DNA from: Rhizobiales bacterium GAS188
GTDB lineage: Bacteria > Pseudomonadota > Alphaproteobacteria > Rhizobiales > Beijerinckiaceae
Assembly: GCA_900104855.1 (NCBI GenBank)
Contig: FNSS01000001.1
Span: 1,302,001 to 1,366,000 of the forward strand
Direction: 5' to 3'
Length of the DNA: 64,000 nucleotides
Program-made: the position numbers and the translations under genes
Shown: in pieces, positions 17,794 to 63,437 of the stretch
Layout: each line of letters starts with the position of its first letter
How positions within the stretch are numbered: position 1 is the first letter of the stretch
Notes under the pieces: model-generated
Database searches by the model: none
Seen by the model: only the letters and a program-made list of their open reading frames with translations
What the model was told of the DNA's origin: nothing

Positions 17794-18633
17794 TCAGGGG
17801 ATTGGCGTGAACTGAAGTTGGCTGATGGGAACGACCTTTTCCGTGCGCACCATCTTGTATTCCGTCGTAGGGCCAAGCCACTTGTCCCAAATCTGATTGA
17901 TCTCTCCGCTCTTGTCCAAGGCTACCAACGCCTCATTGATCTTGGCGAGCAGGGCCGGTTCATCCTTCTTCATTCCGACGCCGACCGGCTCGAGAAGCAT
18001 TGGGTCCTCGATCATTTTGAGCTCAACGCCGCTCTTCGACTCGCTGACCAATTTGGTGATCGTCATCGTGTTGGCCACGATGCCCAGAGCCTTGTTCTGC
18101 TGGACGGCCATGAAAGCCGAACCCGTATCCTGGAAGGTCAGCGGATCAGAACCGTTGAGCTTGATCGAAAGCTCCGACGTGGAGCCCTTGGTCGAAGCCA
18201 GCCTCTTGCCCTTGAAGTCGATCTTCTTTGTGCTCGGGTTACTGGCTTTCACCGCGAGCATTTCCTTTGCGACATAGTAGGCGTCGCTGAACTGGATCTG
18301 CTCGGCGCGGCCGAGCGTGTAGGCAAGATTGGCGACGGCGATGTCCACGCGGCCGAGCTTGACCTCCGGAACACGCGCTTCGACGGACAACGGCGTGACC
18401 TTGGCGGTCACGCCGAGTTGCTTGGCGATGGCGGAACACAGATCGACATCGAAGCCCACCATCTCGCGGGTCTTCGGATCGGGGGCGGCGAAGGGCGGGA
18501 CGTCAGCGAAGGTGCCGCACCGCAGCTCCTTGCGTTGCATGATGTCTTGCAACTGATCTGCCCGCGCGCCGACTGACGCCATGCCAAAGCCGACCGCGAC
18601 GACGATATGAATGACCGAAACTCTCGAGAACAT
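17794..18633 (-). CDS. Polar amino acid ABC transporter, periplasmic binding protein
   Basis: A 279-residue SBP_bac_3 family protein. The signal peptide is VSVIHIVVAVGFGMASVGAR, cleaved near residue 25. The mature domain shows LRCGTFADVPPFAAPDP, MVGFDVDLCSAIAKQLGV and AVANLAYTLGRAEQIQFSDA, the usual ligand-pocket regions of glutamine/polar amino acid binders. ATG at 18633 with AGGAGA just upstream. It is the last gene of a minus-strand unit SDR-permease-permease-ATPase-binder. The ligand cannot be read from sequence; the neighbouring 5-oxoprolinase-like genes suggest a nitrogen-containing amino acid or lactam. Confidence 0.92.
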   Translation of the reverse strand: MFSRVSVIHIVVAVGFGMASVGARADQLQDIMQRKELRCGTFADVPPFAAPDPKTREMVGFDVDLCSAIAKQLGVTAKVTPLSVEARVPEVKLGRVDIAVANLAYTLGRAEQIQFSDAYYVAKEMLAVKASNPSTKKIDFKGKRLASTKGSTSELSIKLNGSDPLTFQDTGSAFMAVQQNKALGIVANTMTITKLVSESKSGVELKMIEDPMLLEPVGVGMKKDEPALLAKINEALVALDKSGEINQIWDKWLGPTTEYKMVRTEKVVPISQLQFTPIP

Positions 18634-18668
18634 GATTGATCTCCTCTTGGATCGAGACGAAGCCATAG

Positions 18669-19403
18669 TCAGTGGGAGCGCAGGTCGGAGAGAAACCGCT
18701 GGGCGCGGGGGTGATTGGGATTGTTGAAGAACTCGTCGGGCTTGGCCGTTTCGAGGATGCTGCCGGCATCCATGAACCAGACCCGGTCCGCGACTTCTCG
18801 CGCGAAACCCATTTCGTGGGTCACGCACATCATCGTCATTCCCTCATTCGCGAGACCGCGCATGACCGCCAGGACCTCGCCGACCATTTCGGGATCGAGC
18901 GCGCTGGTCGGCTCATCAAACAGCATCGCCGGTGGCTCCATCGCCAGGGCTCGCGCGATCGCGACGCGCTGCTGCTGACCGCCGGAGAGCTGCCCCGGAT
19001 AGGCGGCGGCCTTCGAGAATAGGCCGACCCGCTCGAGCAGGCTCATGGCCTTGTCCCGAGCCGTGCTGCGATCGACGCCGTTGATGCGGATCGGCGACAG
19101 CATGACGTTGTCGAGAACGCTGAGATGCGGGAACAGGTTGAAACTCTGGAACACGAATCCGATGCGGCTGCGCAGGCGGTTGAGCTGCGCGCTCTTCATC
19201 TTCGCGTGAACGTTCAGCCCATCGAACATCAGCTCGCCGGATTGGATTTCCTCGAGCCGGTTGACCGTGCGTATGAGCGTCGACTTGCCCGAGCCCGAAG
19301 GGCCGCAGACGACCACGACCTCGCCTCGATCGACTTCCGCGTTGATATCGACGAGAGCCGGATAGGCGCCGTACCACTTGTTCACATGCGAGAATTTGAT
19401 CAT
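18669..19403 (-). CDS. Polar amino acid ABC transporter, ATP-binding protein
   Basis: A 244-residue ATPase of the GlnQ/HisP type. Walker A is GPSGSGKST near residue 34, the signature LSGGQQQR near 139, Walker B with [10 protein letters not shown] near 160, and the H-loop in [13 protein letters not shown]. It powers the two permeases encoded just upstream, whose second gene overlaps it by 4 nt. Length and motifs are normal. Confidence 0.95.
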
Positions 19404-20176
19404 TGACCGATCTCCCGAACCGCATCTCCAAGCCTCGTCGCGGACTGGCCCTCGATTGTTGGCCCATCAGTCGTCTGGCCGGTCGCCCGCTTTGCGGCGA
19501 CGCGACGCTCGAGCCAGTTCGCGAGCTGCGTGAGGCTCCAGCAGACGGAGAAATAGATGATCGCGAGAATGAAGAAGACTTCGAATGGCTTGGTGAGAAG
19601 CCTGTTGTTGATCTGACTTGCCGCGAATGTCAGTTCCGGAACATTGATCACATAGCCGAGCGTCGTCTCCTGGATCGTGGAAACGAACTGGCTGACGATG
19701 CTGGGCAGCATGTTGTAGAGCGCTTGGGGCAGGATGATGTAGCGCATCGCGCTGAGGCGGCCATGGCCCAAGGCGCGCGCGGCATCCATCTGTCCCGCCG
19801 GGAGCGCCTGTATCCCCGCCCGCACCACTTCGCTGAGGAATGCGGCCTCGTAAATCACGAGAGTGCACACCATCGTGACGAAGCCGGGAACGCTCTTTCC
19901 GATCAACAAGGGAACCAGGAAATAGACCCAGAAGATCACCATCAGGAGCGGAATTCCGCGCATGATGTAGATGAGGGCGGTGGCGGGCCCGCGCAGAGCC
20001 GCAAAGGACGACAGCCTCGCCAGGGCGATCAGCACGCCGAGCGGGAAGGCGAGCGTGATACCCAGCAGCGACAGCAGCATCGTCGCCGCGATGCCGCCAA
20101 GCGGTCCGTTCGGGTATTGGCCGATCAGCAAGAGCAGCCAGTTCTCGCTGACGATGTGGTAAATCTCGGCAAGCAT
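19400..20176 (-). CDS. Polar amino acid ABC transporter, permease
   Basis: A 258-residue inner-membrane permease of the HisMQ/GlnP family with about five hydrophobic segments. The ATPase-coupling EAA-type loop is [20 protein letters not shown] followed by [17 protein letters not shown]. It overlaps the ATPase gene by 4 nt and starts 3 nt after the other permease stops, so the two form a heterodimeric channel. The C-terminus carries a charged tail of about 35 residues. Confidence 0.94.
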
Positions 20177-20179
20177 CGG

Positions 20180-20881
20180 TCAGCGTGCCCCGGCTAGCTC
20201 TGCGCGACGGCTGAGCCGTGCACCGAGCGCCATGAGAGTGAGCGAGCAGGCGAGATAGACGAGGGTCGCGATCAGGTAGGTCTCGAAGGTGCGGAAGCTC
20301 TCGTTTTCGACCTCCTTGGCTGCATATGTCAGCTCAGACACCCCGATGGCCATCGAGAGGCTGCTGTTCTTGAACAGGGAAACCGTGTGGTTGATGAGCG
20401 CGGGAAGAGCGTTTCGCAGGGCCTGCGGCACCAGCACGAAGCGCATGGCGCTGATGTAGCCATGCCCCAGCGCTCTTGCGGCGTCGGCCTGGCCCGGTGG
20501 GATGGATCTGAGGCCTGAGCGCAAATCCTCGCTGAAATAGGCCGCCTGGCATAGGCCGAGCCCGATGATCGCGAAGGTCGCTTCCGCATTGTGCTGGCCG
20601 AGCCAGGCCTGAACGGCGCCCGGAAGCAGGCTGGAGATACCGAAATACCAAAGTATCAACTGCACGAGCGTCGGTACGTTGCGATGATAGGTGACGTAGG
20701 CTGCAACCGCGCCCTCGGCGATGCGGCTCGAGGTCAGGCGGATCATCAATAGGACGATGGCCAAGCTCATCGCGAGAAGCCACGAGCTGAGCGCGACGAT
20801 AATGGTCATCTCGAAACCGTCGACGAGCATCCCTCTGAATTCGGGCTTCAGCAGGACGGCTGTGAGGTCGAAGCTGCTCAT
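20180..20881 (-). CDS. Polar amino acid ABC transporter, permease
   Basis: A 233-residue HisMQ-type permease. The EAA-type loop is EDLRSGLRSIPPGQADAARA followed by LGHGYISAMRFVLVPQA, closely parallel to that of its partner. Family markers YHRNVPTLVQLILWYFGISS and NHTVSLFKNSSLSMAIGVSE are present. Its start overlaps the SDR stop by 4 nt, tying the dehydrogenase to the importer in one transcript. Confidence 0.94.
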   Translation of the reverse strand: MSSFDLTAVLLKPEFRGMLVDGFEMTIIVALSSWLLAMSLAIVLLMIRLTSSRIAEGAVAAYVTYHRNVPTLVQLILWYFGISSLLPGAVQAWLGQHNAEATFAIIGLGLCQAAYFSEDLRSGLRSIPPGQADAARALGHGYISAMRFVLVPQALRNALPALINHTVSLFKNSSLSMAIGVSELTYAAKEVENESFRTFETYLIATLVYLACSLTLMALGARLSRRAELAGAR

Positions 20882-21648
20882 CCAGGCGCTCCGGCCTGTG
20901 CCGGCGCCGCCGCGGGCTTGGCCGTGGAGAGTCCGCCAGGCACCTGGAGCGTCGGCGTGATCTCCATGTGGCCGATATTGACAGCGACCGGAGCTGAGAT
21001 CGCGAAGGCGATCGCGTCGGCGATGTCTTTCGCTTCCGGCAGTTCGTAGCCCTCGATGAAGCGCTCATAGGTCTCGCGCGAGCTGCCATGGACATGGGCG
21101 AAGATATCCGTCGCAACGCGGCCTGGACAAATCTCGGTGACGCGAACGCGCCGCCCGAATGCGTCGATGCGGAGTTGACGCGACAGCATGCTGATCGCGG
21201 CCTTGGTGGCGTGATAGGAGGAATTGCCACTGAAATTATAGGCGCCGGCGATCGAGCTCATGTTGACGACATGGCCTCGGTCGCGCGCAACCATGCCCGG
21301 AACGATGAGGCGACACAGGTGCAACACCGCGCGGAGATTGACATCGACGAGCAGATCGATGTCCTCGGCATCAGCCTTCAAGAAAGGTTTGGGCCGATCG
21401 ACGCCTGCATTGTTTACGAGGATGTCGAAATTGGTCTCGCCGGTGAGCCGCGTCACGCCCGCCAGGTCCGTCACATCGAGCGCATGGGCGATGCAGCCGG
21501 TGCGTTCAGCCAGTGCGCTAAGCGCCTTCGCGCTGCGCGCCAGCGCGTGGACCTCGAGGCCCTCCTTGCAGAGCCGCTCGACGACGGCAGCGCCGATACC
21601 GGAGGACGCGCCGGTGACGAGAGCTGTTCGATAATCGGAGAAGGGCAT
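20878..21648 (-). CDS. Short-chain dehydrogenase/reductase (YdfG-like)
   Basis: A 256-residue classical SDR. Cofactor motif TGASSGIG at residues 12-19, NNAG near 83, catalytic Ser in NMSSIAGAYNFSG near 134 and YHATK (Tyr-x3-Lys) near 146. The overall pattern resembles YdfG-type 3-hydroxy acid dehydrogenases. The C-terminus is extended by an Ala/Pro-rich tail. It is the first gene of the unit that continues into the ABC importer. A palindromic LysR-type site lies 75-89 nt upstream. Confidence 0.9.
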   Translation of the reverse strand: MPFSDYRTALVTGASSGIGAAVVERLCKEGLEVHALARSAKALSALAERTGCIAHALDVTDLAGVTRLTGETNFDILVNNAGVDRPKPFLKADAEDIDLLVDVNLRAVLHLCRLIVPGMVARDRGHVVNMSSIAGAYNFSGNSSYHATKAAISMLSRQLRIDAFGRRVRVTEICPGRVATDIFAHVHGSSRETYERFIEGYELPEAKDIADAIAFAISAPVAVNIGHMEITPTLQVPGGLSTAKPAAAPAQAGAPG

Positions 21649-21699
21649 CGCAATCCCTCACGTCGATACGCTACGTTATCGAACAGTCATGCGCCGGGC

Positions 21700-21738
21700 T
21701 AAGACGGAATGTCTGTGGCGGGATAAGGGGGTCTTATG
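21700..21738. promoter_or_regulatory. LysR/Nac-type operator upstream of the SDR-importer unit (38-bp repeat, copy 1)
   Basis: Two palindromes side by side: AGAC-N5-GTCT (21702-21714) and ATAAG-N5-CTTAT (21723-21737), the latter an ATA-N9-TAT site as bound by Nac-like LysR proteins. The 38-bp block recurs at 26475-26513 with 32 identities. It sits between the pxpA-like stop (21761) and the SDR start (21648). Confidence 0.7.
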
Positions 21739-21760
21739 CTTGGCAGCGCCGCCCTCGGCC

Positions 21761-22528
21761 TTAGGCGACCTGGCGCGATATCGGAACGACGCTGCCGCCA
21801 TTCGCCTCAATTTCCGTGCGGATGGACCTTGCGAGGCCGACGGCGCCCTCAGTGTCGCCATGCAGCAGAATGCTCGCCGGCCGCATGGGCAATATGTTGC
21901 CGCCATAGGTAACGACTTCGCCCAGCTGAAGAACGCGCCGCACGCGTTCACGAACGAATGCTTCGTCATGAATGACGGAACCAGGCATCTTGCGCGGCAC
22001 GAGCAGCCCGTCATCGTCATAGGCGCGGTCGGCGAGGAAGGTCGTGGCGACCCTGAGGCCACAAGCCTCGGCCGCTGTCTCGATGGCGCGGCTGGTCGAC
22101 GAGATGATGATGAGCCGCGGATCGAAGGCCGCCACGGCCCGCACGAGGGTCGCAGCGAGCTCGGCATCCGCTGCGACCACGTTGCCGAGCGCGCCGTGGA
22201 AGCTCATATGCGTCATGAGGCACCCCTGAGCCCGGCAGATGCCGTGCAGTGCACCGAGCTGATAGATCACCATCGCGGCGAGCTCGACCGGGTCGATCTG
22301 CATCACGCGACGACCAAAGCCCTGACGATCCGGAAAGCCAACATGGGCGCCGACGTCGACGCTTCGCTCCATCGCGCGCTCGACCGTGCGCTGCATGATC
22401 AGCGGATCGCCGGCATGAAATCCGCATGCAAGATTGGCCGACGAAAGCACATCGAGAAGTGCGTCGTCATTCCCCATCGGCCATCGACCGAAGCCCTCGG
22501 CGAGGTCGGCATTGAGGTCAATGTCCAT
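21761..22528 (-). CDS. pxpA: LamB/YcsF family protein, 5-oxoprolinase subunit A-like
   Basis: A 255-residue homologue of PxpA, which with PxpB and PxpC hydrolyses 5-oxoproline to glutamate using ATP. It begins MDIDLNADLAEGFGRW and has SSANLACGFHAGDPLIMQRT near residue 37 and VGAHVGFPDRQGFGRR near 66, all family signatures. The usual KPHGALYN block reads SFHGALGN here, a mild deviation. ATG at 22528 overlaps the preceding gene by 11 nt. Because accB/accC-like genes are in the same operon, the complex may act on a related lactam rather than 5-oxoproline itself. Confidence 0.85.
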   Translation of the reverse strand: MDIDLNADLAEGFGRWPMGNDDALLDVLSSANLACGFHAGDPLIMQRTVERAMERSVDVGAHVGFPDRQGFGRRVMQIDPVELAAMVIYQLGALHGICRAQGCLMTHMSFHGALGNVVAADAELAATLVRAVAAFDPRLIIISSTSRAIETAAEACGLRVATTFLADRAYDDDGLLVPRKMPGSVIHDEAFVRERVRRVLQLGEVVTYGGNILPMRPASILLHGDTEGAVGLARSIRTEIEANGGSVVPISRQVA

Positions 22529-22961
22529 CTCGATCCAGCTCCCATATGTCATGTAGCTCGATGACCTTCGTGCCGTAGCCAACGAGCGCTCCGTGAGCGG
22601 CGAGCACGCCTGCCACCTGTCCGTCTCGAGGCGCACTCACGGGTACGAGCAGAGCGCCGATCTGAACGAGGGCGAGCACCTGGCCGGCCCGCACCCGGCT
22701 TCCAAGCGGAGCAAGCGGCGTGTCGCGCATCGGATGGGTGTGCAGGAGGACGCCGACCGTCGGGGCCGTCAGGACAATGCCCTGTGATACGCAGGGTTCG
22801 CCGTCGACAAGCCCCGGCACCGCATCGTTGGGCTCGGTGCCGAGGCTTTTCCGGTCGACGTCCGGCAGTCTCAGCCGCCCCATTGGGCCGCTGAGATCAA
22901 ACAGTGTTATCCCGGCTTCGGCGAGCCAAGTCGATATCTCCTCAATGTGATCGAAAGGCAT
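22518..22961 (-). CDS. Biotin-carrier-like protein lacking the biotinylated lysine
   Basis: A 147-residue protein with the layout of AccB: an N-terminal helix-strand piece (IEEISTWLAEAGITLFDLSG) and a C-terminal biotinyl-lipoyl barrel (GIVLTAPTVGVLLHTHPM and RAGQVLALVQIGALLVPVSA). At the hairpin where the neighbouring AccB has EAMKTFNE, this protein has QIGALLVP: the biotin-accepting Lys is Ala103. It therefore cannot carry biotin in the usual way. Start at 22961 lies 1 nt after the KipA-like stop. A structural or scaffold role in the Pxp/carboxylase complex is possible, but that is speculation. Confidence 0.75.
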   Translation of the reverse strand: MPFDHIEEISTWLAEAGITLFDLSGPMGRLRLPDVDRKSLGTEPNDAVPGLVDGEPCVSQGIVLTAPTVGVLLHTHPMRDTPLAPLGSRVRAGQVLALVQIGALLVPVSAPRDGQVAGVLAAHGALVGYGTKVIELHDIWELDRDGH

Positions 22962-22962
22962 G

Positions 22963-23949
22963 TCAGCAGTGCCGTTTCTTCGCGCGATAAAGGTCGACCA
23001 GGCGGCGCGCTTCGGCAATCCAGCGTTCGTTGACTTCCAGCGCCGCGACAGCTTCGTCCCAGCTCGCTTCGACGAAACGGATCCGGCTGCCGATCGGCGC
23101 CTGACCGAGGCGCCAGAGATCGGCCTCGATCACCGTTGCGATCTTCGGATAGCCTCCGGATGGCTGCGCATCGCGCATCTGCACGATCGGCTGTCCGTCG
23201 GGCGGCACCTGGATCACCCCCGGTACGATCCCGTGCGAGCGCAACTCGATCGGCGCGGCTGGAATCAGCGGCGTGCCCTCCAGGCGGAACCCGTAGCGAT
23301 CGCTTCGCGGCGTGATCTTCCACGGCTCGCGCCAGAAGCTGTCCCGGGCCGCCTGCGTGTATGCATCATATTCTGCGGCGGGAAGCGCCCGGATGGCGGG
23401 CAGACCGTCTACGAGCATCGGCATCGACAAAGCCGGCGAGCACAGGCCAAATCCCAGGCGCACAGCGTTGCTGGAAGCGCCTGCCGAGAGCCTGTCGCCG
23501 GGACGCAATGCGCGCCCCTCGAGACCGCCGAAAGCGCCCCGCAACTGGGTGCTGCGTGATCCCAGCACAACCGGCACTTCCACGCCGCCAGCGAGGCATA
23601 CATAAGCTCGGCTCGCGGCGCAGGCCCCTCGAGCTGGGAAACCTAGACGAAGCACCTGGCCCGCCTTCGCGCCGTGGGCCCACCAGGGGGGCAGGAGCAG
23701 CTCGTCGAGCTCGGCATTGCAATCCGCCCCGGTGACGGCGAATGCGCAATCTTTCAGGAAGCGGATCTGAAACGGAAAAATCTGGACCTCGACGGCCGCC
23801 GCGTGCTCCGGATTGCCCAGCAGCACGTTTCCGCCCGACAGAGCAAGGCCGTCCATCGCCCCCGAGGCACCGACGCCCCATTTCAGCGCGCCTTTGCGCC
23901 CGATATCCTGCACGGTCGCCAATGCGCCGGTGGACATGATCTCGATCAT
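22963..23949 (-). CDS. pxpC: Biotin-dependent carboxyltransferase family protein, 5-oxoprolinase subunit C-like (KipA)
   Basis: A 328-residue KipA/PxpC homologue. It shows STGALATVQDIGRKGALKWG at the start, SGAMDGLALSGGNVLLGNPE near residue 29, YVCLAGGVEVPVVLGSRSTQ near 115 and the LRSHGIVPGVIQVPPDGQPI block near 243, all conserved in the family. It overlaps the KipI-like gene by 4 nt. It is expected to form a complex with the PxpB and PxpA homologues on either side. Confidence 0.9.
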   Translation of the reverse strand: MIEIMSTGALATVQDIGRKGALKWGVGASGAMDGLALSGGNVLLGNPEHAAAVEVQIFPFQIRFLKDCAFAVTGADCNAELDELLLPPWWAHGAKAGQVLRLGFPARGACAASRAYVCLAGGVEVPVVLGSRSTQLRGAFGGLEGRALRPGDRLSAGASSNAVRLGFGLCSPALSMPMLVDGLPAIRALPAAEYDAYTQAARDSFWREPWKITPRSDRYGFRLEGTPLIPAAPIELRSHGIVPGVIQVPPDGQPIVQMRDAQPSGGYPKIATVIEADLWRLGQAPIGSRIRFVEASWDEAVAALEVNERWIAEARRLVDLYRAKKRHC

Positions 23950-24605
23950 CGGATCACATCCGCGACGATGAAACGGATGCTGTCGCCTGGGCGAAGCAGA
24001 GCGGGAGGATCGAGCGCCGGATCGAAGAAGCGCATGGCGGTGCTGCCGATCGTGTTCCAGCCGCTCGGGCCGTCAGACGCGGACACCCCTGTCTGCCCTC
24101 CGCCAATCGAAACCGCTCCGCCGGGAATTTTGAGGGCCGGCGTCCTGCGTCGCGGCGTGGCGAGCCGCTGATCCATCCCGCCCAGGTAGCAATAGCCGGG
24201 ATGGCTGCCGAGAGCGTAGACTTGATAGGTCGGGGCGCTGTGGATCGCCGCAATCTCGTCCAGGGCGAGGCCGGTATGGGCGATCACGTCCGCCACATGC
24301 GGCCCGCCTTCGCCGCCATAGACGACCGGCAGCTCGATCAACCTCCCCTGCATCGCGAGTGGCACCGCCGCAGCCCAGGCGGCCCGCAGTCGCGCCTCGA
24401 GGGGATCGAGGCTGCGCGGCGGGCACGGAAAGGTCAGCATGACGTTGTTCATGCCGGGCACGGCTTCGCTGATCTCAGGCCATCGCTCGGCCTCCGCCGC
24501 CAAAGCCCAGATTCTCTGTTGGGTGATGAGGCTCGTCGCGCCGGGCGCCTCAAAGAGCAAGGCGCTGGTCCCGAGCAAGCTGATGCGAGGTTCGTTGAGC
24601 GTCAT
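23946..24605 (-). CDS. pxpB: KipI family protein, 5-oxoprolinase subunit B-like
   Basis: A 219-residue KipI/PxpB homologue, the ATP-handling subunit of 5-oxoprolinase in known systems. Signature segments are [20 protein letters not shown] near residue 91, [20 protein letters not shown] near 130 and [20 protein letters not shown] near 162. Start and stop overlap the biotin carboxylase and KipA-like genes by 4 nt each, so these products are made together. Confidence 0.9.
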
Positions 24606-25954
24606 GCTCCGTCGCCCCCGCGCAAGCTGCGTTCGAGATGATGGATATCGACCTCGCCCGAGATGAAAGCCGGATCTGCGACGATGCGTCGGTGGAGCGC
24701 AAGGTTGGTGGCGATGCCGGAGACTCGCATCTCGTCGAGGGCGATCCGCAAACGTCCCAGCGCGTCCTCACGAGTGTCGCCGTGGACGATCAGCTTCGCG
24801 ATCATCGAGTCGTAGTGGCGCGTGACGACGTATCCCGCACCGGCATGGCTATCGACGCGGACGCCGCACCCCCCTGGCACGTCCCAACCCGTGATCAGGC
24901 CCGGAGAAGGCAGAAAGGTTTCGGGGTCCTCAGCGTTGATGCGACATTCGATGGAATGGCCTCGGCAGCCGACATCCTCTTGCGCGAAGGCCAGACGCTC
25001 GCCGCGGGCGACGCGGATCTGTTGCTGGACGATGTCGATCCCGGTCGTCATTTCCGTGACCGGGTGCTCGACCTGCAGCCGCGTGTTCATCTCGATGAAA
25101 TAGAAGGCTCCGCCCTCGACCAGGAATTCGAAGGTGCCGAGGCCACGATAGCCGATCTCTCGACAAGCCTGAGCGCAGCGCTCGCCGATTTCCGCAATCC
25201 GCGATTGAGCGATCCCGAGAGCGGGTGCCTCCTCGAGCACCTTTTGGTGGCGGCGCTGCAAGGAGCAGTCCCGGCTGCCGAGCCAAAGGGCATTGCCATG
25301 GCTGTCTGCTAGCACCTGTATCTCCACATGGCGCGGATGAGCGAGGAACTTTTCGATATAGACTTGGGCGTTTCCGAAGGCCTTGCGTGCCTCCTCGCGC
25401 GTCACCGCGACCGCATCGACCAATCCGGCCTCTTCGGCGACGACGCGCATGCCACGCCCGCCGCCTCCACCCGCAGCTTTCACGATCACCGGATATCCAA
25501 TCTCGCGCGCCAAGCCGCGAAGGGCATCTCGGTCCTGGGGAAGCGCCATGTCCGGGCCGGGAACGCAGGGGATGTTCGCCGCGCGCATCGCTCGCTTCGC
25601 GGCGACCTTGTCGCCCATCATGCGGATGCAGGCGGCATCGGGCCCAATGAAAGTCAATCCAGCTTCCACCACCCGTTCGGCGAAGCTCGCGTTCTCCGAT
25701 AGGAAACCATAGCCAGGATGTATGGCCTCGGCGCCAGTCGCTTCGGCGGCGAGTAAGATCGCGGCCTGGTCGAGATAGCTCTCGGCTGCGGCGGCTGGGC
25801 CGATGCAGACCGCGAGATCCGCCCGGCCAACATAGGCCGCGTCGCGATCCGCCTCGGAATGGACGACGATCGTGCGCAGGCCGAGGCTACGGCAGGCACG
25901 CTGAATGCGAAGGGCGATCTCGCCTCGGTTGGCGATGAGGACGGAGCTGAACAT
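24602..25954 (-). CDS. accC: Biotin carboxylase (AccC-like)
   Basis: A 450-residue ATP-grasp biotin carboxylase, normal for AccC. It starts [20 protein letters not shown]; the ATP-grasp region has [18 protein letters not shown] near residue 155 and the catalytic [20 protein letters not shown] near 288. ATG at 25954 follows GAGGG; an in-frame ATG four codons upstream is less likely. Its position with AccB and Pxp homologues, and the lack of a carboxyltransferase of the AccA/D type, suggest that it serves this pathway rather than fatty acid synthesis. Confidence 0.92.
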
Positions 25955-25962
25955 GGCGGCCC

Positions 25963-26397
25963 TCAAGCGATCCGCATAAGCGGCTGCCCGACCTCGACCT
26001 CGACCCCGGAAGCGACATGCACGGCCTCGATGATGCCGTCGCGCTCAGCGATCACTTCGTTGAAGGTCTTCATCGCTTCGACAACGCAGACTGGCGCTCC
26101 TGCCTTCACGACTTGTCCTGGGACGACAAGGAGCGGCGCGTCCGGCGAAGTGCGGAGATGGACGATCCCGGAAAGCGGAGCACGGATCTCCGTGCTGGAT
26201 GCAGATGTCGCGGCCTTTAGGACTTCGCCTCGTGACCGTTGCTGCGTTGGTGTGGCTTTGCGCGCTGGCCGAGCGGCCAGGCTCCTGTCCCCGCCGCGAA
26301 CGAGCCTGAGCGTCCAGCCGTCCTTGCTGACCTCGAGCTCCGTGAGATCGGACGAAGCCATGGCGTCGATGAATGCCTTGATCTCGTGCAGTTCCAT
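25963..26397 (-). CDS. accB: Biotin carboxyl carrier protein (AccB-like)
   Basis: A 144-residue carrier. The C-terminal barrel has [17 protein letters not shown] with the biotin-accepting Lys at residue 110, and [20 protein letters not shown] before it. The N-terminus ([20 protein letters not shown]) and a short Ala/Pro/Arg linker are as in AccB. First gene of the minus-strand unit accB-accC-pxpB-pxpC-carrier-like-pxpA. A LysR-type palindrome lies 101-115 nt upstream. Confidence 0.92.
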
Positions 26398-26474
26398 GAG
26401 CGCATCCCGGTTCGAGCTTCTCGCGTGAACCCGCAACCGCGACCGGAATGCTATTTACATCGGAGCCGGATCGC

Positions 26475-26513
26475 CAAGACGGAATGTCTTTGCCGCGATA
26501 AGGGTCGCTTATG
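26475..26513. promoter_or_regulatory. LysR/Nac-type operator upstream of the accB-pxp unit (38-bp repeat, copy 2)
   Basis: AGAC-N5-GTCT (26477-26489) next to ATAAG-N5-CTTAT (26498-26512), the same pair of palindromes with the same spacing as at 21700-21738. The ATA-N9-TAT part overlaps the stop codon of the lysR gene and lies upstream of accB, which is read in the same direction. Confidence 0.72.
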
Positions 26514-27450
26514 TCGACGGGCTGTGAGCCGTTTCGAGAGGGGGCTGCGCGCCGCCACGGAGGTTGCCGACGAGTTCCATGAGGATATCCTTGATCGCAC
26601 GCGCCGGCTCCGACAGCGGCAGGTGATCCGACTGGCACAATGCCAGCGGCGCCTCGATCACGGGGTCGACGATGCGTGATAGCCAAGCATTGCAGGAGCC
26701 TGCGATCTCGCGCGCCATCGATTCCGGCAGGATCGTCGCTCCAAGGCCGTCCGCGATGACGGCGGTCAGCGTCCCCGCAGACTCGATCTCGGCAGCGACC
26801 TTCGGGGTGATGCCTATTCCCGCGAAGGCTTCGTTCACCATCCTGCGGACGACGTTGTAGGGGCGCGGCAGATAGAGATCGAGCTCACCGATAGCGCGCA
26901 AAGGCACGTCGGGCGGAGCGGCCACCAGGCTTTCGGGCCCGACGAGGTAGAGCGGTTCCTTGAGCAACGGGATGAAGGACAACCCGTGTATGGCCGTCTG
27001 GCCGCCGTAAAGCACAGCGAGATCCATTCGCCCGTTCATGATGAGCTCGGACAGCGTGCTGCCATAGGTTTCATTCAGGTAGAGCAGTATCGCGGGATGG
27101 CGCGCCCGGACCGTTCGCAGCAGCGGCAATGCCAGGCCCGTGGCGGCCGTGCCGGGCGCGAGTCCGACGGACACCGCGCCGGAGAGTGCTTTCCCCGCCG
27201 CCTTCATGTCGGCCTGCGCCTGCTCGCATTGCCGCAAGATGAGCTGCGCATGGCGGTAAAGGATTTTCCCGGCCTCCGTCGGCGTGACGCCCCGCTTCGT
27301 CCGAAGAAGGAGCTGCTGGCGCACCTCGCCCTCGAGCGTCGCCAACTGCTGGCTCAACGCGGGTTGGGCCACGTGCAGAATGTCCGCCGCTTGAGTGAGG
27401 CTGCCGATATCGACGATCTTCACGAAATACTGGAGGCGTCTGAGATTCAC
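26509..27450 (-). CDS. LysR-family regulator, Nac-like
   Basis: A 313-residue LysR protein. The helix-turn-helix region reads MNLRRLQYFVKIVDIGSLTQ, AADILHVAQPALSQQLATLE and LLLRTKRGVTPTEAGKILYR, very close to nitrogen-assimilation-control (Nac) and related regulators. The GTG at 27450 puts the start exactly where Nac proteins begin, with GGGAG upstream; the frame is open further 5', but that part is not conserved in the family. It lies between the accB unit and the divergent aminotransferase unit. ATA-N9-TAT sites occur before each of the three units around it. Confidence 0.9.
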   Translation of the reverse strand: MNLRRLQYFVKIVDIGSLTQAADILHVAQPALSQQLATLEGEVRQQLLLRTKRGVTPTEAGKILYRHAQLILRQCEQAQADMKAAGKALSGAVSVGLAPGTAATGLALPLLRTVRARHPAILLYLNETYGSTLSELIMNGRMDLAVLYGGQTAIHGLSFIPLLKEPLYLVGPESLVAAPPDVPLRAIGELDLYLPRPYNVVRRMVNEAFAGIGITPKVAAEIESAGTLTAVIADGLGATILPESMAREIAGSCNAWLSRIVDPVIEAPLALCQSDHLPLSEPARAIKDILMELVGNLRGGAQPPLETAHSPST

Positions 27451-27650
27451 ATCGTCGCTCCCGTCCGGCGGCGTGCCTCTGTCAGTTTGAACCCCACCAA
27501 AACCCAAGCTCGTCATTAGAGCATATTCCGCCGAAGCGGGCATCGTTCAGCGACAAGAATACTCTCAAATAATTGATTCAGTGCGAAATCCTGTCGATCG
27601 GATGACTCTATCCAATCGCAAAGCGCGCCGGCGGGACATCGGGTGAAGCC

Positions 27651-27665
27651 ATAAGAGCCTCCTAT
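27651..27665. promoter_or_regulatory. LysR/Nac-type operator upstream of the aminotransferase unit
   Basis: ATAAG-N5-CCTAT, an ATA-N9-TAT site that differs by one base from the perfect palindromes at 21723 and 26498. It lies between the lysR start (27450) and the divergent aminotransferase start (27747), 82-96 nt upstream of the latter. Confidence 0.6.
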
Positions 27666-27746
27666 TGTGGCAGAGTAAACCCATCTTGGTCATGGCCATC
27701 GTTGCGGGCTAACCGTTCCATATCGGCTCCGCATTCGAGGTCTTTC

Positions 27747-28955
27747 GTGAATTCGCTCAGGATCGCAAAGCGCGTCAGGCGCATCAAGCCGTCGCCCAGC
27801 AGCGCCGCCGCCGATCGCGCCAACGAGTTGCGGCGCCAGGGTCGACACATCGTCAGCCTCGTCGTCGGGGAGCCCGATTTCGACACCCCCGCGCATATAC
27901 GCCAGGCAGCTGCCCGGGCCATGGAGAATGGCGCGACCCGCTACACCCCGCTGGCGGGCACGCTCGAGTTGAGGCAGGCCATCGCGGACAAGCTCCAGCG
28001 CGAGAACGGACTCGCCTATGCGGCCGACGAGATCATCGCGACGAATGGAGCCAAGAGCGCCATCTACAGCGCCCTCGCCGCGACGATCGAGCCCGGCGAC
28101 GAGGTGATCATACCCGCCCCCTACTGGGTGTCTTATCCGGACATGGTGTTGGCCTGCGAAGGCACGCCGGTAGCCGTCGCTTGCGGGGAGAAACAGGGCT
28201 TCAAGCTGAGTTCGACACAACTTGAAGAAGCCATCACCGAGAAAACCCGATGGCTCATCCTGAATTCCCCGAGCAATCCCACCGGCGCGAGCTACTCGGA
28301 GACCAATTACCGCGCCTTGTCCGAGGTGCTCGTCCGGCATCCGCATGTGCTCGTCATGACCGATGACATCTATGAGCACATCCGCTTCGCCGGCGCGCCG
28401 GCACCACATCTCCTGGCAGTCGCCCCTCACCTGCGCGACCGTGCGCTGGCCATTAACGGCGTATCCAAGACATACGCCATGACCGGCTGGCGCATCGGCT
28501 GGATCGCTGGCCCGCGTGACCTGATCACGGCCATCGAAACGCTGCTGTCGCAGTCCGCCGGCAATTGCTGCTCGATCAGCCAGGCCGCGGCGGCAGCCGC
28601 GTTGAACGGCGACCAGGCATTCGTGGCGCAAAGCGTCATGACCTATAAGGGAAGGCGCGACGAAGCTCTGGCCCGCATCAACTCTATTCCTGGCTTGAGC
28701 TGCCGTGCGCCGGACGGCGCGTTCTATCTTTACGTGAATTGCGCCGGCCTGATCGGAAAGAAGACGCCTGACGGCAAACGCTTGGATCTCGACGGCGACG
28801 TCGTGCTCTATTTTCTCGAGGGCGCGGGTGTCGCGCTTGTCGCCGGCGCGGCCTACGGACTCTCCCCCTATTTCAGGATGTCGATCGCGACATCGCTCGA
28901 AACATTGACCGAAGGCATCGAGCGCATGGCGAGCGCCGTCTCGAAGCTTCACTGA
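27747..28955 (+). CDS. Class I pyridoxal-phosphate aminotransferase (AspB/AspC-like)
   Basis: A 402-residue fold-type I aminotransferase. Landmarks are RIKPSPSSAAADRANELRRQ, VVGEPDFDTPAHIRQAA, PYWVSYPDMV, NSPSNPTGASYSE and the cofactor-binding Lys in NGVSKTYAMTGWRIGW. The GTG at 27747 (VNSLRIAKRVRRI) has GAGG seven bases upstream and gives the usual N-terminus; a TTG at 27702 would add 15 unrelated residues. First gene of a plus-strand unit with an RraA-like aldolase and a MetE-C-like protein. The amino donor or acceptor cannot be told from sequence. Confidence 0.9.
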   Translation: MNSLRIAKRVRRIKPSPSSAAADRANELRRQGRHIVSLVVGEPDFDTPAHIRQAAARAMENGATRYTPLAGTLELRQAIADKLQRENGLAYAADEIIATNGAKSAIYSALAATIEPGDEVIIPAPYWVSYPDMVLACEGTPVAVACGEKQGFKLSSTQLEEAITEKTRWLILNSPSNPTGASYSETNYRALSEVLVRHPHVLVMTDDIYEHIRFAGAPAPHLLAVAPHLRDRALAINGVSKTYAMTGWRIGWIAGPRDLITAIETLLSQSAGNCCSISQAAAAAALNGDQAFVAQSVMTYKGRRDEALARINSIPGLSCRAPDGAFYLYVNCAGLIGKKTPDGKRLDLDGDVVLYFLEGAGVALVAGAAYGLSPYFRMSIATSLETLTEGIERMASAVSKLH

Positions 28956-28979: not shown

Positions 28980-29645
28980 ATGCAGACCGCCGGTATCCAA
29001 AAATACCCCTCGGCCTCACAAGCCGATCCGGCCATCGTCACCGCCCTGCGTGACATCCCGGTCGCGCTCTTGAGCGACAACCTGCACCGCAATTGCGGCA
29101 GCGTCGGGCTGCACCCCTATCACAGCCCGGGGCCACTCGCGGGAACAGCCGTCACGGTGCGGACCAGAGGCGGCGACAATTTGGCGGTCTTGCGCGCATT
29201 CGAATTCTGCCGGCCCGGCGACGTGATGGTGGTCGATGCCGGAGGCGACGTCTCCAACGCGGTGATCGGCGGCATCCTGTCCTTTTATGCCGCCTCCATT
29301 GGCCTTGCCGGCATGGTGATCGACGGCGCCATCCGCGACGTCGCGGAGATCGGCGAGCGGAAATTCCCCGTTTACGCGCGCGGCGTCAACCATCGCGGCC
29401 CCTACAAGGACGGGCCGGGCGAGATCAACGTCGCCATCTCGGTCGGAGGCATGGCGGTCAGGCCGGGTGATCTCGTGGTCGGCGATCGAGACGGCTTGCT
29501 GGCGTTCGGGCCGGAAATCGCCGGCTGGCTCATCGAGAAAGCCTTGGCGCAGCGCGCGAAGGAGGAAGAAACCATGCGGGTTATGCGCGAAGGTCGATGG
29601 GACCGCTCGTTCATCGATGCTTTGGAGGCCCGCTGCGCCAACTGA
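28980..29645 (+). CDS. RraA-like protein, probable 4-hydroxy-2-oxoacid-type aldolase
   Basis: A 221-residue member of the RraA/HMG-CHA aldolase family. It has VVDAGGDVSNAVIGGILSFY, MVIDGAIRDVAEIGERKFPV (Arg-Asp of the active site) and RGPYKDGPGEINVAISVGGM. Such proteins cleave 4-carboxy-4-hydroxy-2-oxoacids or decarboxylate oxaloacetate. It starts 24 nt after the aminotransferase. A paralogue with the same YKDGPGEI block is encoded at 61891-62562. Confidence 0.87.
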   Translation: MQTAGIQKYPSASQADPAIVTALRDIPVALLSDNLHRNCGSVGLHPYHSPGPLAGTAVTVRTRGGDNLAVLRAFEFCRPGDVMVVDAGGDVSNAVIGGILSFYAASIGLAGMVIDGAIRDVAEIGERKFPVYARGVNHRGPYKDGPGEINVAISVGGMAVRPGDLVVGDRDGLLAFGPEIAGWLIEKALAQRAKEEETMRVMREGRWDRSFIDALEARCAN

Positions 29646-29743: not shown

Positions 29744-30853
29744 ATGATTGCGGCACATACCGATGTTGTCGGCAGTCTTCTCCGGCCGGTCGCGTTGCGC
29801 AAAGCACGGGAAGACTGGGTGGCCGGGCGTCTTAGTCAGGCGCAATTCAAGTCCATGGAGGATCGCGCCGTCGATGAGGCGGTCTCCCTGCAGGAGGCAG
29901 CGGGGCTCGACATCGTGACCGACGGCGAAATGCGGCGGCTTTCGTTCCAGAGCCAGATGACCGAGGCTGTCGACGGTTTCGGCGCCTGGGACATCAATGC
30001 CTTCTTGTGGGGCCATTGGCATGGCGACGGCGCCGTCGGGGAGCGGCGCCGCGAGCGGCCGGTCAATCTCGGCGTGGTCAGCAAGCTCGTGCGCAAACGG
30101 CATCTTGCTGCCGAAGAGTTCGTCTATCTGCGTGGCCGCACGAGCCGCGTCGCAAAGGTAACCCTGCCCAGCCCCAGCCTGTTTGTGAATTTCTGGTCGC
30201 CGGAACGTTCCCGGTCCGCATATGCAAGCCTCGAACACTATCTCGCCGACGTGGTCGCGATCCTTCGCGACGAGGTCGCGGAGCTGGTTCGCCTCGGTGC
30301 CACCTATATCCAGATCGACGCACCTCACTATCCTCTGCTGCTCGCGCCTGAGACCCGGACCTTTTATGAATCGCGCGGCTGGACATTCGATGAGTGGTTG
30401 AGCCGCGGGATCGAGCTCGACAACGCCGTGATGGCGGGATTTCCCGACGTGACCTTCGCCATCCACCTCTGTCGTGGCAACCAAGAAGGCCGTTGGCTCG
30501 TCGAGGGCGACTATGAGCCAATTGCCCGGCCGATTTTCCAGCGCATCGGTGCAACGCGGCTTCTCCTCGAATACGACGACGATCGGTCGGGCTCGTTTGC
30601 ACCCCTCCGGCACGTCCCGGACGACAAGACGGTGGTCCTCGGATTGATCAGCACCAAGCGGCCACAAACGGAGGCGCCGGAAGACCTCATCCGTCGCATC
30701 ACGGAAGCAAACCGCTTTGTGCCGCTAGAGCGCTTGGCGCTCAGCCCTCAGTGCGGCTTTGCGTCTTCGATCGTTGGAAACAACCTTTCCATCGAGGACG
30801 AAAGACGTAAGCTCGAGACGCTGTGCGAAACTGCGCGACGCGTATGGAGCTAG
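29744..30853 (+). CDS. MetE C-terminal-like (cobalamin-independent methionine synthase family) protein
   Basis: A 369-residue protein of the UROD/MetE-C fold. It starts IAAHTDVVGSLLRPVALRKA, the typical entry of short MetE-like proteins. The zinc ligand set is present: His241 and Cys243 in FAIHLCRGN, Glu276 in LLEYDDD, and Cys337 in SPQCGF. QIDAPHYPLL carries the usual QxDxP motif. Short stand-alone members often transfer methyl or other groups between thiols and substrates other than homocysteine, or are of unknown role. Last gene of the aminotransferase unit. Confidence 0.85.
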   Translation: MIAAHTDVVGSLLRPVALRKAREDWVAGRLSQAQFKSMEDRAVDEAVSLQEAAGLDIVTDGEMRRLSFQSQMTEAVDGFGAWDINAFLWGHWHGDGAVGERRRERPVNLGVVSKLVRKRHLAAEEFVYLRGRTSRVAKVTLPSPSLFVNFWSPERSRSAYASLEHYLADVVAILRDEVAELVRLGATYIQIDAPHYPLLLAPETRTFYESRGWTFDEWLSRGIELDNAVMAGFPDVTFAIHLCRGNQEGRWLVEGDYEPIARPIFQRIGATRLLLEYDDDRSGSFAPLRHVPDDKTVVLGLISTKRPQTEAPEDLIRRITEANRFVPLERLALSPQCGFASSIVGNNLSIEDERRKLETLCETARRVWS

Positions 30854-62960: not shown

Positions 62961-63437
62961 ATGAAAGATCTTTCAGCGAGGAGGATCGCCGGTGCCGCGA
63001 TCTCTGCGGTGCTGCTATCCGCATTGGCCGGATGCGTATCTCAGAGCTCGGCGCCGTCAGCTGCGGCAGCGCCATCCTTGAGTGCTTCAAGCATTCCGGC
63101 TGACTCGCTCGTCGGCCGCTGGGGCTTGGCATCGTATCACAATGAGGCGGACCGAAAGCGGACCGAAGTGGCCGCGCGCGGCCAGTGCCATCAACCCTAC
63201 GTGATCGGCAAGGGGCAATCGGGTGGCGTGATGATGCGCCTCGCCGATAGTGCCAAGGAAGAGGAGGTGTTCGTCAGGAGCGACGCCAATGGCAAAAGCT
63301 TCATCGGCCCGTCCGGTGCGACCGCCGAGCAGTCCAGCCTCGAGATCGTGTCGCTGGACAAAAAGGAGCTGGTCGCCCGCTGGATCGATCCCGAAATAGC
63401 CGCTCGCTATGGGACGATGGTCTACGTCCGGTGCTGA
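62961..63437 (+). CDS. Putative outer-membrane or periplasmic lipoprotein, 158 aa
   Basis: Signal with lipobox: RIAGAAISAVLLSALAGC, lipidated Cys near residue 25. The mature part (VGRWGLASYHNEADRKRTEV then AARGQCHQPYVI) and the end (LVARWIDPEIAARYGTMVYV) form a small beta-rich domain of unknown role. GGAGAGG lies about 10 nt upstream of the ATG at 62961. An L,D-transpeptidase gene follows on the same strand, suggesting a cell-envelope context. Confidence 0.75.
   Translation: MKDLSARRIAGAAISAVLLSALAGCVSQSSAPSAAAAPSLSASSIPADSLVGRWGLASYHNEADRKRTEVAARGQCHQPYVIGKGQSGGVMMRLADSAKEEEVFVRSDANGKSFIGPSGATAEQSSLEIVSLDKKELVARWIDPEIAARYGTMVYVRC

Follow-up and report, generated by a model that had tools for sequence, protein, structure and literature searches.

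The window analyzed here is a stretch of 64,000 nucleotides from Rhizobiales bacterium GAS188 (GenBank assembly GCA_900104855.1, contig FNSS01000001.1, positions 1,302,001 to 1,366,000). It contains a gene for a LysR regulator of the NAC family and three transcription units, A, B, and C, each preceded by a similar palindromic site. Judging from the sequence, it is very probable that the three sites are control sites of one regulon, with the NAC-family LysR protein as its local activator. The lysR gene lies on the minus strand at 26509 to 27450 and starts with a GTG at 27450. Its product scores 484 bits against the NAC model NF008410 (cut-off, 309), 70 bits against PF00126, and 102 bits against PF03466.

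Unit A, also on the minus strand, reads accB1, accC, pxpB, pxpC, accB2, and pxpA. The accB1 gene (25963 to 26397) encodes a biotin carboxyl carrier-like protein (PF00364) that reaches 83 bits with the biotin carboxyl carrier protein model, under the cut-off of 115, and carries an EAMK motif; AMK is the biotinylation motif. It is followed by a biotin carboxylase gene, accC (24602 to 25936; TIGR00514, 634 bits versus 626.5), by pxpB (23946 to 24605; TIGR00370, 188 bits versus 145.6), and by a gene for a pxpC-like carboxyltransferase-domain protein (22963 to 23949; TIGR00724, 306 versus 230). The biotin/lipoyl-domain protein encoded by accB2 (22518 to 22961; PF00364, 27.9 bits versus 22.1) is without the AMK motif; most related loci retain the gene, with low sequence identity. 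The last gene, pxpA of the LamB/YcsF family (21761 to 22564), gave 319 bits with NF003814 (cut-off, 226) when scanned as 21761 to 22636. Among the models that define a PxpABC 5-oxoprolinase, those for PxpA and PxpB are thus exceeded, and the PxpC equivalog NF045499 is not (301 versus 500). Judging from its domains, among them those of carboxyltransferase type in PxpB and PxpC, the set resembles a split urea-carboxylase-like enzyme, and its substrate need not be 5-oxoproline itself. Unit B, again on the minus strand, begins with an SDR oxidoreductase gene (20878 to 21648; PF00106), for which no NCBIfam model stood above its own cut-off among the best 25. It continues with a polar amino acid ATP-binding cassette (ABC) importer (17794 to 20881) consisting of two permeases (so called because RefSeq annotates matching genes in this way), an ATPase (PF00005), and a binding protein (PF00497). 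Unit C, on the plus strand, comprises a class I/II aminotransferase (27747 to 28955; PF00155, scanned from 27702), an RraA-like aldolase (28980 to 29645; PF03737), and a MetE C-domain protein (29744 to 30853; PF01717) that is possibly the last gene of the unit in this genome. The longer aminotransferase frame, including 27702 to 27747, begins before the predicted transcription start, and the GTG at 27747, with a GAGGT upstream, is the likelier start codon.

The initial annotation had placed three ATA-N9-TAT sites in front of these units, and all three were found at the positions it gave. Site A (26498 to 26512, minus strand; overlapping the lysR stop codon) and site B (21723 to 21737, minus strand) are exact copies of the 15-bp palindrome ATAAG-N5-CTTAT, and site C (27651 to 27665, plus strand), between lysR and the divergent aminotransferase gene, has one mismatch. 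With the base composition of the window, chance alone would yield about 0.94 exact 15-mers per genome and 0.0007 per 7 kb. The ATA-N9-TAT core occurs in five copies in the window against 1.19 expected, the two others being at 25709, inside accC, and at 63396. Measured to the start codons, the sites lie 100 nucleotides before accB (ATG at 26397), 74 before the SDR gene (ATG at 21648), and 81 before the aminotransferase gene if this starts at GTG 27747, which comes close to the 75 to 115 nucleotides claimed earlier. Sites A and B are embedded in a direct repeat, which a repeat finder delimited as 41 nucleotides of 83% identity. The 38-bp repeat with 32 identities that had been described has 31 of 38 in the frame 21700/26475 and 32 of 38 one base further on. 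As also described, both copies hold an AGAC-N5-GTCT palindrome, whose center is 22 bp from that of the other palindrome; site C retains just the ATCTTGG half of this element.

An alignment anchored on the palindrome, in the direction of the target unit, shows for sites A and B CATAAG-N5-CTTAT, then CA.AG.CA, CCGTCTTGG, and a TA near offset 59. At site C, the GTCTTGG and TA parts recur with unchanged spacing, here on the strand opposite to lysR. Each of the three elements is aimed at its own target unit, with fixed offsets on the strand of that unit: the GTCTTGG element is centered 22 bp downstream of the palindrome and overlaps a -35 TTGG, which is followed by a -10 TAnnnT. In front of accB, the second element AAGAC-N5-GTCTT (26472 to 26490, minus strand) overlaps the -35 box TTGGCG (26472 to 26477), and a predicted -10 box TAGCAT (26448 to 26453) would give a start near 26441. 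In front of the SDR gene, CAGAC-N5-GTCTT (21697 to 21715, minus strand) overlaps TTAGCC (21697 to 21702), and a predicted TAACGT (21673 to 21678) would give a start near 21666. In front of the aminotransferase gene, the second element (27673 to 27691, plus strand), of which the ATCTTGG half alone is clear, overlaps TTGGTC (27686 to 27691), and a predicted TAACCG (27710 to 27715) would place the start near 27722. All three promoters have a spacer of 18 bp between the two boxes. With transcription assumed to start at offset 71, the palindrome would be centered at -64 and the second element at -42 relative to the predicted start, a placement that would match the usual layout of LysR activators.

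Conservation was assessed in 43 related loci, fetched by the LysR protein sequence alone with no DNA criterion, giving 44 with the window; several are near-copies of each other (e.g., L045/L077 and L070 to L072), and the number of independent loci is smaller. The loci span Alpha- and Betaproteobacteria, and the closest relatives of the regulator among them are from Bradyrhizobium. Site C stands before lysR in all 44. Site A stands before accB in all 44, with at most two arm mismatches in 43 and in decayed form in L078, a rearranged locus in which ATA-N9-TAT and GTCTTGG are still kept. In this Bradyrhizobium copy (L078, 8001 to 9400), accB1 comes after lysR, and the greater part of the acc-pxp unit is absent from that place. 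Site B was found in every one of the 37 loci that continue into the SDR unit. The seven loci without site B either end before its position (L055, L065, L067, and L074) or carry an inverted importer and gave no match for the SDR (L070 to L072). The sites are thus kept wherever the gene order is kept, in the comparison of related loci that the initial annotation had called for. ATA-N9-TAT is intact in 124 of the 124 counted sites, and across the 44 loci the arms of the palindrome are conserved while the spacers vary freely. Exact 15-mers number 72 in the 656 kb of these loci, where the reversed control has none and 49 permuted versions of the arms average 0.10. Conservation extends to the second element, with denominators of 43 related sites for A, 37 loci where the SDR unit follows for B, and 44 for C: TCTT at offset 33 to 36 is found in 42/43, 34/37, and 37/44 sites, TTGG at offset 35 to 38 in 39/43, 33/37, and 40/44, and TA at offset 59 to 60 in 38/43, 23/37, and 41/44, respectively. 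The third unit had been proposed to consist of aminotransferase, RraA, and MetE-C genes. The aminotransferase holds up well, adjoining site C in 41 of the 44 loci (in Microvirga L066, L068, and L069 the RraA gene does so instead), and RraA was matched in 30 of the 43 related loci, a count lowered partly by loci that end. The MetE-C gene found no such backing: it had no match in any of the 43, and many of these loci stop short of its position.

Relatives of the cluster, with a regulator that bears the annotation nac, occur on p42c of R. etli, on pRL10 of R. johnstonii, and on a plasmid of Rahnella. An unannotated Variovorax plasmid (L113) carries three such elements with GTCTTGG. In L106, L107, and L114 the second element is weaker, with 4 or 5 of the 7 GTCTTGG letters. 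L108, which has a NAC-family copy without pxp matches, gave no match to the 40-bp pattern built from the window sites at up to five mismatches. RefSeq names the pxp-linked regulators of L112, L114, and L115 "nitrogen assimilation transcriptional regulator NAC."

A scan of the genome (9.09 Mb, three contigs), also proposed by the initial annotation, gave four exact 15-mers, of which two are in the window, one is in L016, and one is in L017, and 32 sites at up to one mismatch. The 40-bp pattern has three genome matches at up to one mismatch, all of them the window sites, and its reversed control has none. The fourth-best match is the hyuA promoter of L017 (9444 to 9483), with three mismatches and ATCTTGG at the same offset. 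L016 is a second pxpBCA cluster beside a D-glutamate-cyclase gene, and L017 is a hydantoinase/oxoprolinase A-B (hyuAB) cluster. The LysR gene of each is flanked on both sides by the 15-bp palindrome, exact or with one mismatch (L016, 8377 to 8391 and 9397 to 9411; L017, 8487 to 8501 and 9445 to 9459). Their products score 66 and 50 bits, respectively, with the NAC model, far under its cut-off. Relatives of the L017 regulator have the exact 15-mer at their own loci in three of seven cases (two from one genus), and relatives of the L016 regulator have it with one or two mismatches, 29 to 35 bp before the start, in 7 of 16. Genome-wide, 9 of the 32 sites fall within the interval from 214 bp upstream to 955 bp downstream of the helix-turn-helix start of a LysR gene (100 of 102 LysR matches were used, two below the cut-off being dropped). 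The corresponding figure is 0 of 50 for the reversed-control sites listed out of 52, and uniform placement, which ignores base composition near such genes, predicts 0.56. The nine sites stand beside six LysR genes, one of which encodes a protein above the NAC cut-off, and we rejected the palindrome as a mark of Nac-like proteins. Since LysR loci outside the NAC family, L016 and L017, and their relatives carry it, the 15-bp palindrome is a general LysR box. The earlier use of ATA-N9-TAT as a Nac-type sign therefore holds for the sites themselves and fails for the specificity of the 15-mer.

Several observations weigh against a three-unit regulon under the NAC-family protein. The 15-mer is common to LysR genes outside that family, and another LysR protein could contribute. 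In the window, a search at two mismatches gave 5 sites where 3.9 are expected, and the genome count of 32 at up to one mismatch is below the 52 of the reversed control, none of which is exact among the 50 matches listed. The 15-mer is therefore not over-represented, and the non-random part is its placement and conservation. The 40-bp pattern was built from the window sites, so its rarity elsewhere is the sole independent evidence that it offers. The second element of site C is not palindromic, and -10 boxes with at least 4/6 matches to TATAAT are scarce (6/43 for A, 11/37 for B, and 5/44 for C), although weak -10 boxes may be expected of activator-dependent promoters. The Rhizobiaceae-type loci L109, L110, L112, and L115 have one site in the filtered scan, before the SDR unit, and the second copy looked for before their acc-pxp unit was not in that scan; the three-site layout is therefore not universal in the wider family. 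The genome count relative to its control would speak for site matches that arose by chance, an explanation that we consider wholly improbable and rejected on the conservation across loci, where arms are kept and spacers are not, and which also fails to account for 9 of 32 sites near LysR genes against none of the 50 listed control sites. It is quite improbable, too, that several LysR proteins share the palindrome such that the three units, the L016 pxpBCA cluster, and the L017 hyuAB cluster form one larger regulon. All four exact genomic 15-mers do fall at oxoprolinase-type loci, and cross-regulation is possible at the hyuA promoter of L017 with its partial match to the 40-bp pattern. However, L016 and L017 have their own LysR genes flanked by sites, the 15-mer recurs beside the genes of three of seven relatives of the L017 regulator, and three of the four L016/L017 sites are without the GTCTTGG element.

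The remaining alternative concerns the regulator itself, which might be a true orthologue of enteric NAC, raised by NtrC and sigma54 and acting without an inducer on the three units as nitrogen-starvation genes. Enteric NAC has ATA-N9-TAT as its core site. The protein is the one member above the NAC cut-off among 81 genome matches to the model, its DNA-binding domain is 82 to 84% identical to those of two enteric NACs, and the three units handle nitrogen compounds; in enterics, nac is switched on by NtrC, according to passages of PMC12304020. We nevertheless regard this alternative as improbable. Of 398 genomes sampled from the phylum, 17 had a match with an E value of at most 1e-80; one family, taken as enteric because the highest scores are there, supplies 12 of the 17. 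One genome of this family, G377, encodes both kinds: a NAC of 567 bits with no pxp match in the surrounding 16 kb (L094 and L111), and a second copy of 509 bits beside pxpBCA, aminotransferase, SDR, and importer genes (L105 and L106), where exact 15-mers mark the lysR end and the region in front of the SDR gene. Genome G222 (L107) resembles this second copy. The coexistence suggests that the pxp-linked regulator is a different gene from enteric nac. In a tree of 62 rows (L079, an overlong reading, was left out), 10 enteric-type NACs are on one side of a branch (90/81) and 43 pxp-linked proteins are on one side of another (88/95), both with moderate support and neither starred. No sigma54-type sequence with fewer than four mismatches to the commonly cited consensus was found in the 400 bp around the lysR start, and enteric-type sigma54 control of lysR was rejected on that ground. 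The protein between the units is Nac-like, as first annotated, and it reads best as a NAC-family paralogue, whose label is not to be taken as general nitrogen control.

Local control of the three units by this NAC-family paralogue agrees with the regulon for a nitrogen-containing substrate that had been proposed initially, and it is supported by conservation in 44 loci, by the fixed offsets of the second element and promoter boxes, by the lack of site B in L070 to L072, which have no SDR match, by the rarity of the 40-bp element, and by a DNA-binding domain close to that of enteric NACs. Most likely, the protein is an inducible LysR activator of a catabolic regulon for a 5-oxoproline-type lactam. 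The features of a two-site LysR activator are present, namely a helix-turn-helix and an effector domain, a T-N11-A palindrome near -65 relative to the predicted start, and a second site next to the -35 box. The protein would bind as a tetramer and respond to an inducer. One dimer would sit on ATAAG-N5-CTTAT near -64 and the other on GTCTTGG near -42, adjoining a sigma70-type promoter that has TTGG in its -35 box and a weak -10. The second dimer would be shifted by an inducer, probably the lactam taken up by the cell or something formed from it, and RNA polymerase could then start. This would turn on jointly the importer and SDR genes, the genes of the lactam-opening AccBC-PxpABC proteins, and, in the opposite direction, those of the aminotransferase and the aldolase; site C probably also limits transcription of lysR.

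As for the substrate, RraA-type aldolases cleave 4-hydroxy-2-oxo acids, and in the rhizobial clusters the aldolase gene is annotated as 4-carboxy-4-hydroxy-2-oxoadipate aldolase. Our guess is a hydroxylated 5-oxoproline, which would fit ring opening, transamination, and aldolase cleavage because of that aldolase specificity. A more speculative reading, which we think rather unlikely in its entirety, joins these points. NAC would have a sister family, spread over Alpha-, Beta-, and Gammaproteobacteria, frequently plasmid-borne in rhizobia, and automatically named NAC, that acts as a dedicated activator of lactam amino acid catabolism. A copy of one such local regulator would later have come under NtrC and become global, as enteric NAC. 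The hydroxylated 5-oxoproline would be opened by AccBC-PxpABC and transaminated to a 4-hydroxy-2-oxo acid for RraA-type cleavage.

The locus may add a second control system to those of Pxp-type clusters, unrelated to the first and with precisely defined predicted operators. The proposed regulon predicts that one particular set of importer, SDR, aminotransferase, and aldolase works jointly on one compound, and it cautions that the NAC annotation of proteins in rhizobia and related bacteria may conceal local catabolic regulators. A paper of May 2026 states in its discussion that the regulation of bacterial 5-oxoproline metabolism was unstudied before, to its authors' knowledge (PMC13274462). The whole words Nac and oxoproline are absent from the main text of a comparative survey of 33 proteobacterial regulators (PMC5343134). 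The regulon was not found described among the titles and abstracts listed by a literature search that covers few subscription journals, and its novelty is provisional.

Among known systems, NAC of Klebsiella and E. coli shares with this regulator the NCBIfam family, a near-identical DNA-binding domain, and the ATA-N9-TAT core. It differs in serving many nitrogen genes, whereas the protein described here serves a local catabolic cluster, belongs to a separate branch (with moderate support), and has no sigma54 promoter detected near its gene. The PxpR-pxpTABC system of Corynebacterium glutamicum likewise places PxpABC and an importer under dedicated local control. It does so with a GntR-type repressor, a secondary transporter, and one operon, and its abstract and discussion make no mention of AccBC, an SDR, an aminotransferase, or an aldolase (PMC13274462). 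Urea carboxylase is comparable in that AccC and the PxpB-like and PxpC-like proteins match parts of TIGR02712 or its domains; here, however, these are separate genes with PxpA in addition, and PxpC and AccC are far under the TIGR02712 cut-off. A parallel in promoter layout is BhbR1 of Pigmentiphaga kullae, a LysR regulator of 3-bromo-4-hydroxybenzoate catabolism. According to passages of the report on it, BhbR1 was footprinted on an ATA-N9-TAT site and has a second site overlapping the -35 box, and LysR recognition sites are usually centered near -65, with the second site overlapping -35 (PMC12016517). A LysR review describes second-site contacts as essential for activation and as falling in non-conserved sequence (PMC4834489). 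Unlike in BhbR1-type activators, the second site here is itself conserved, and it is found at three promoters, not one.

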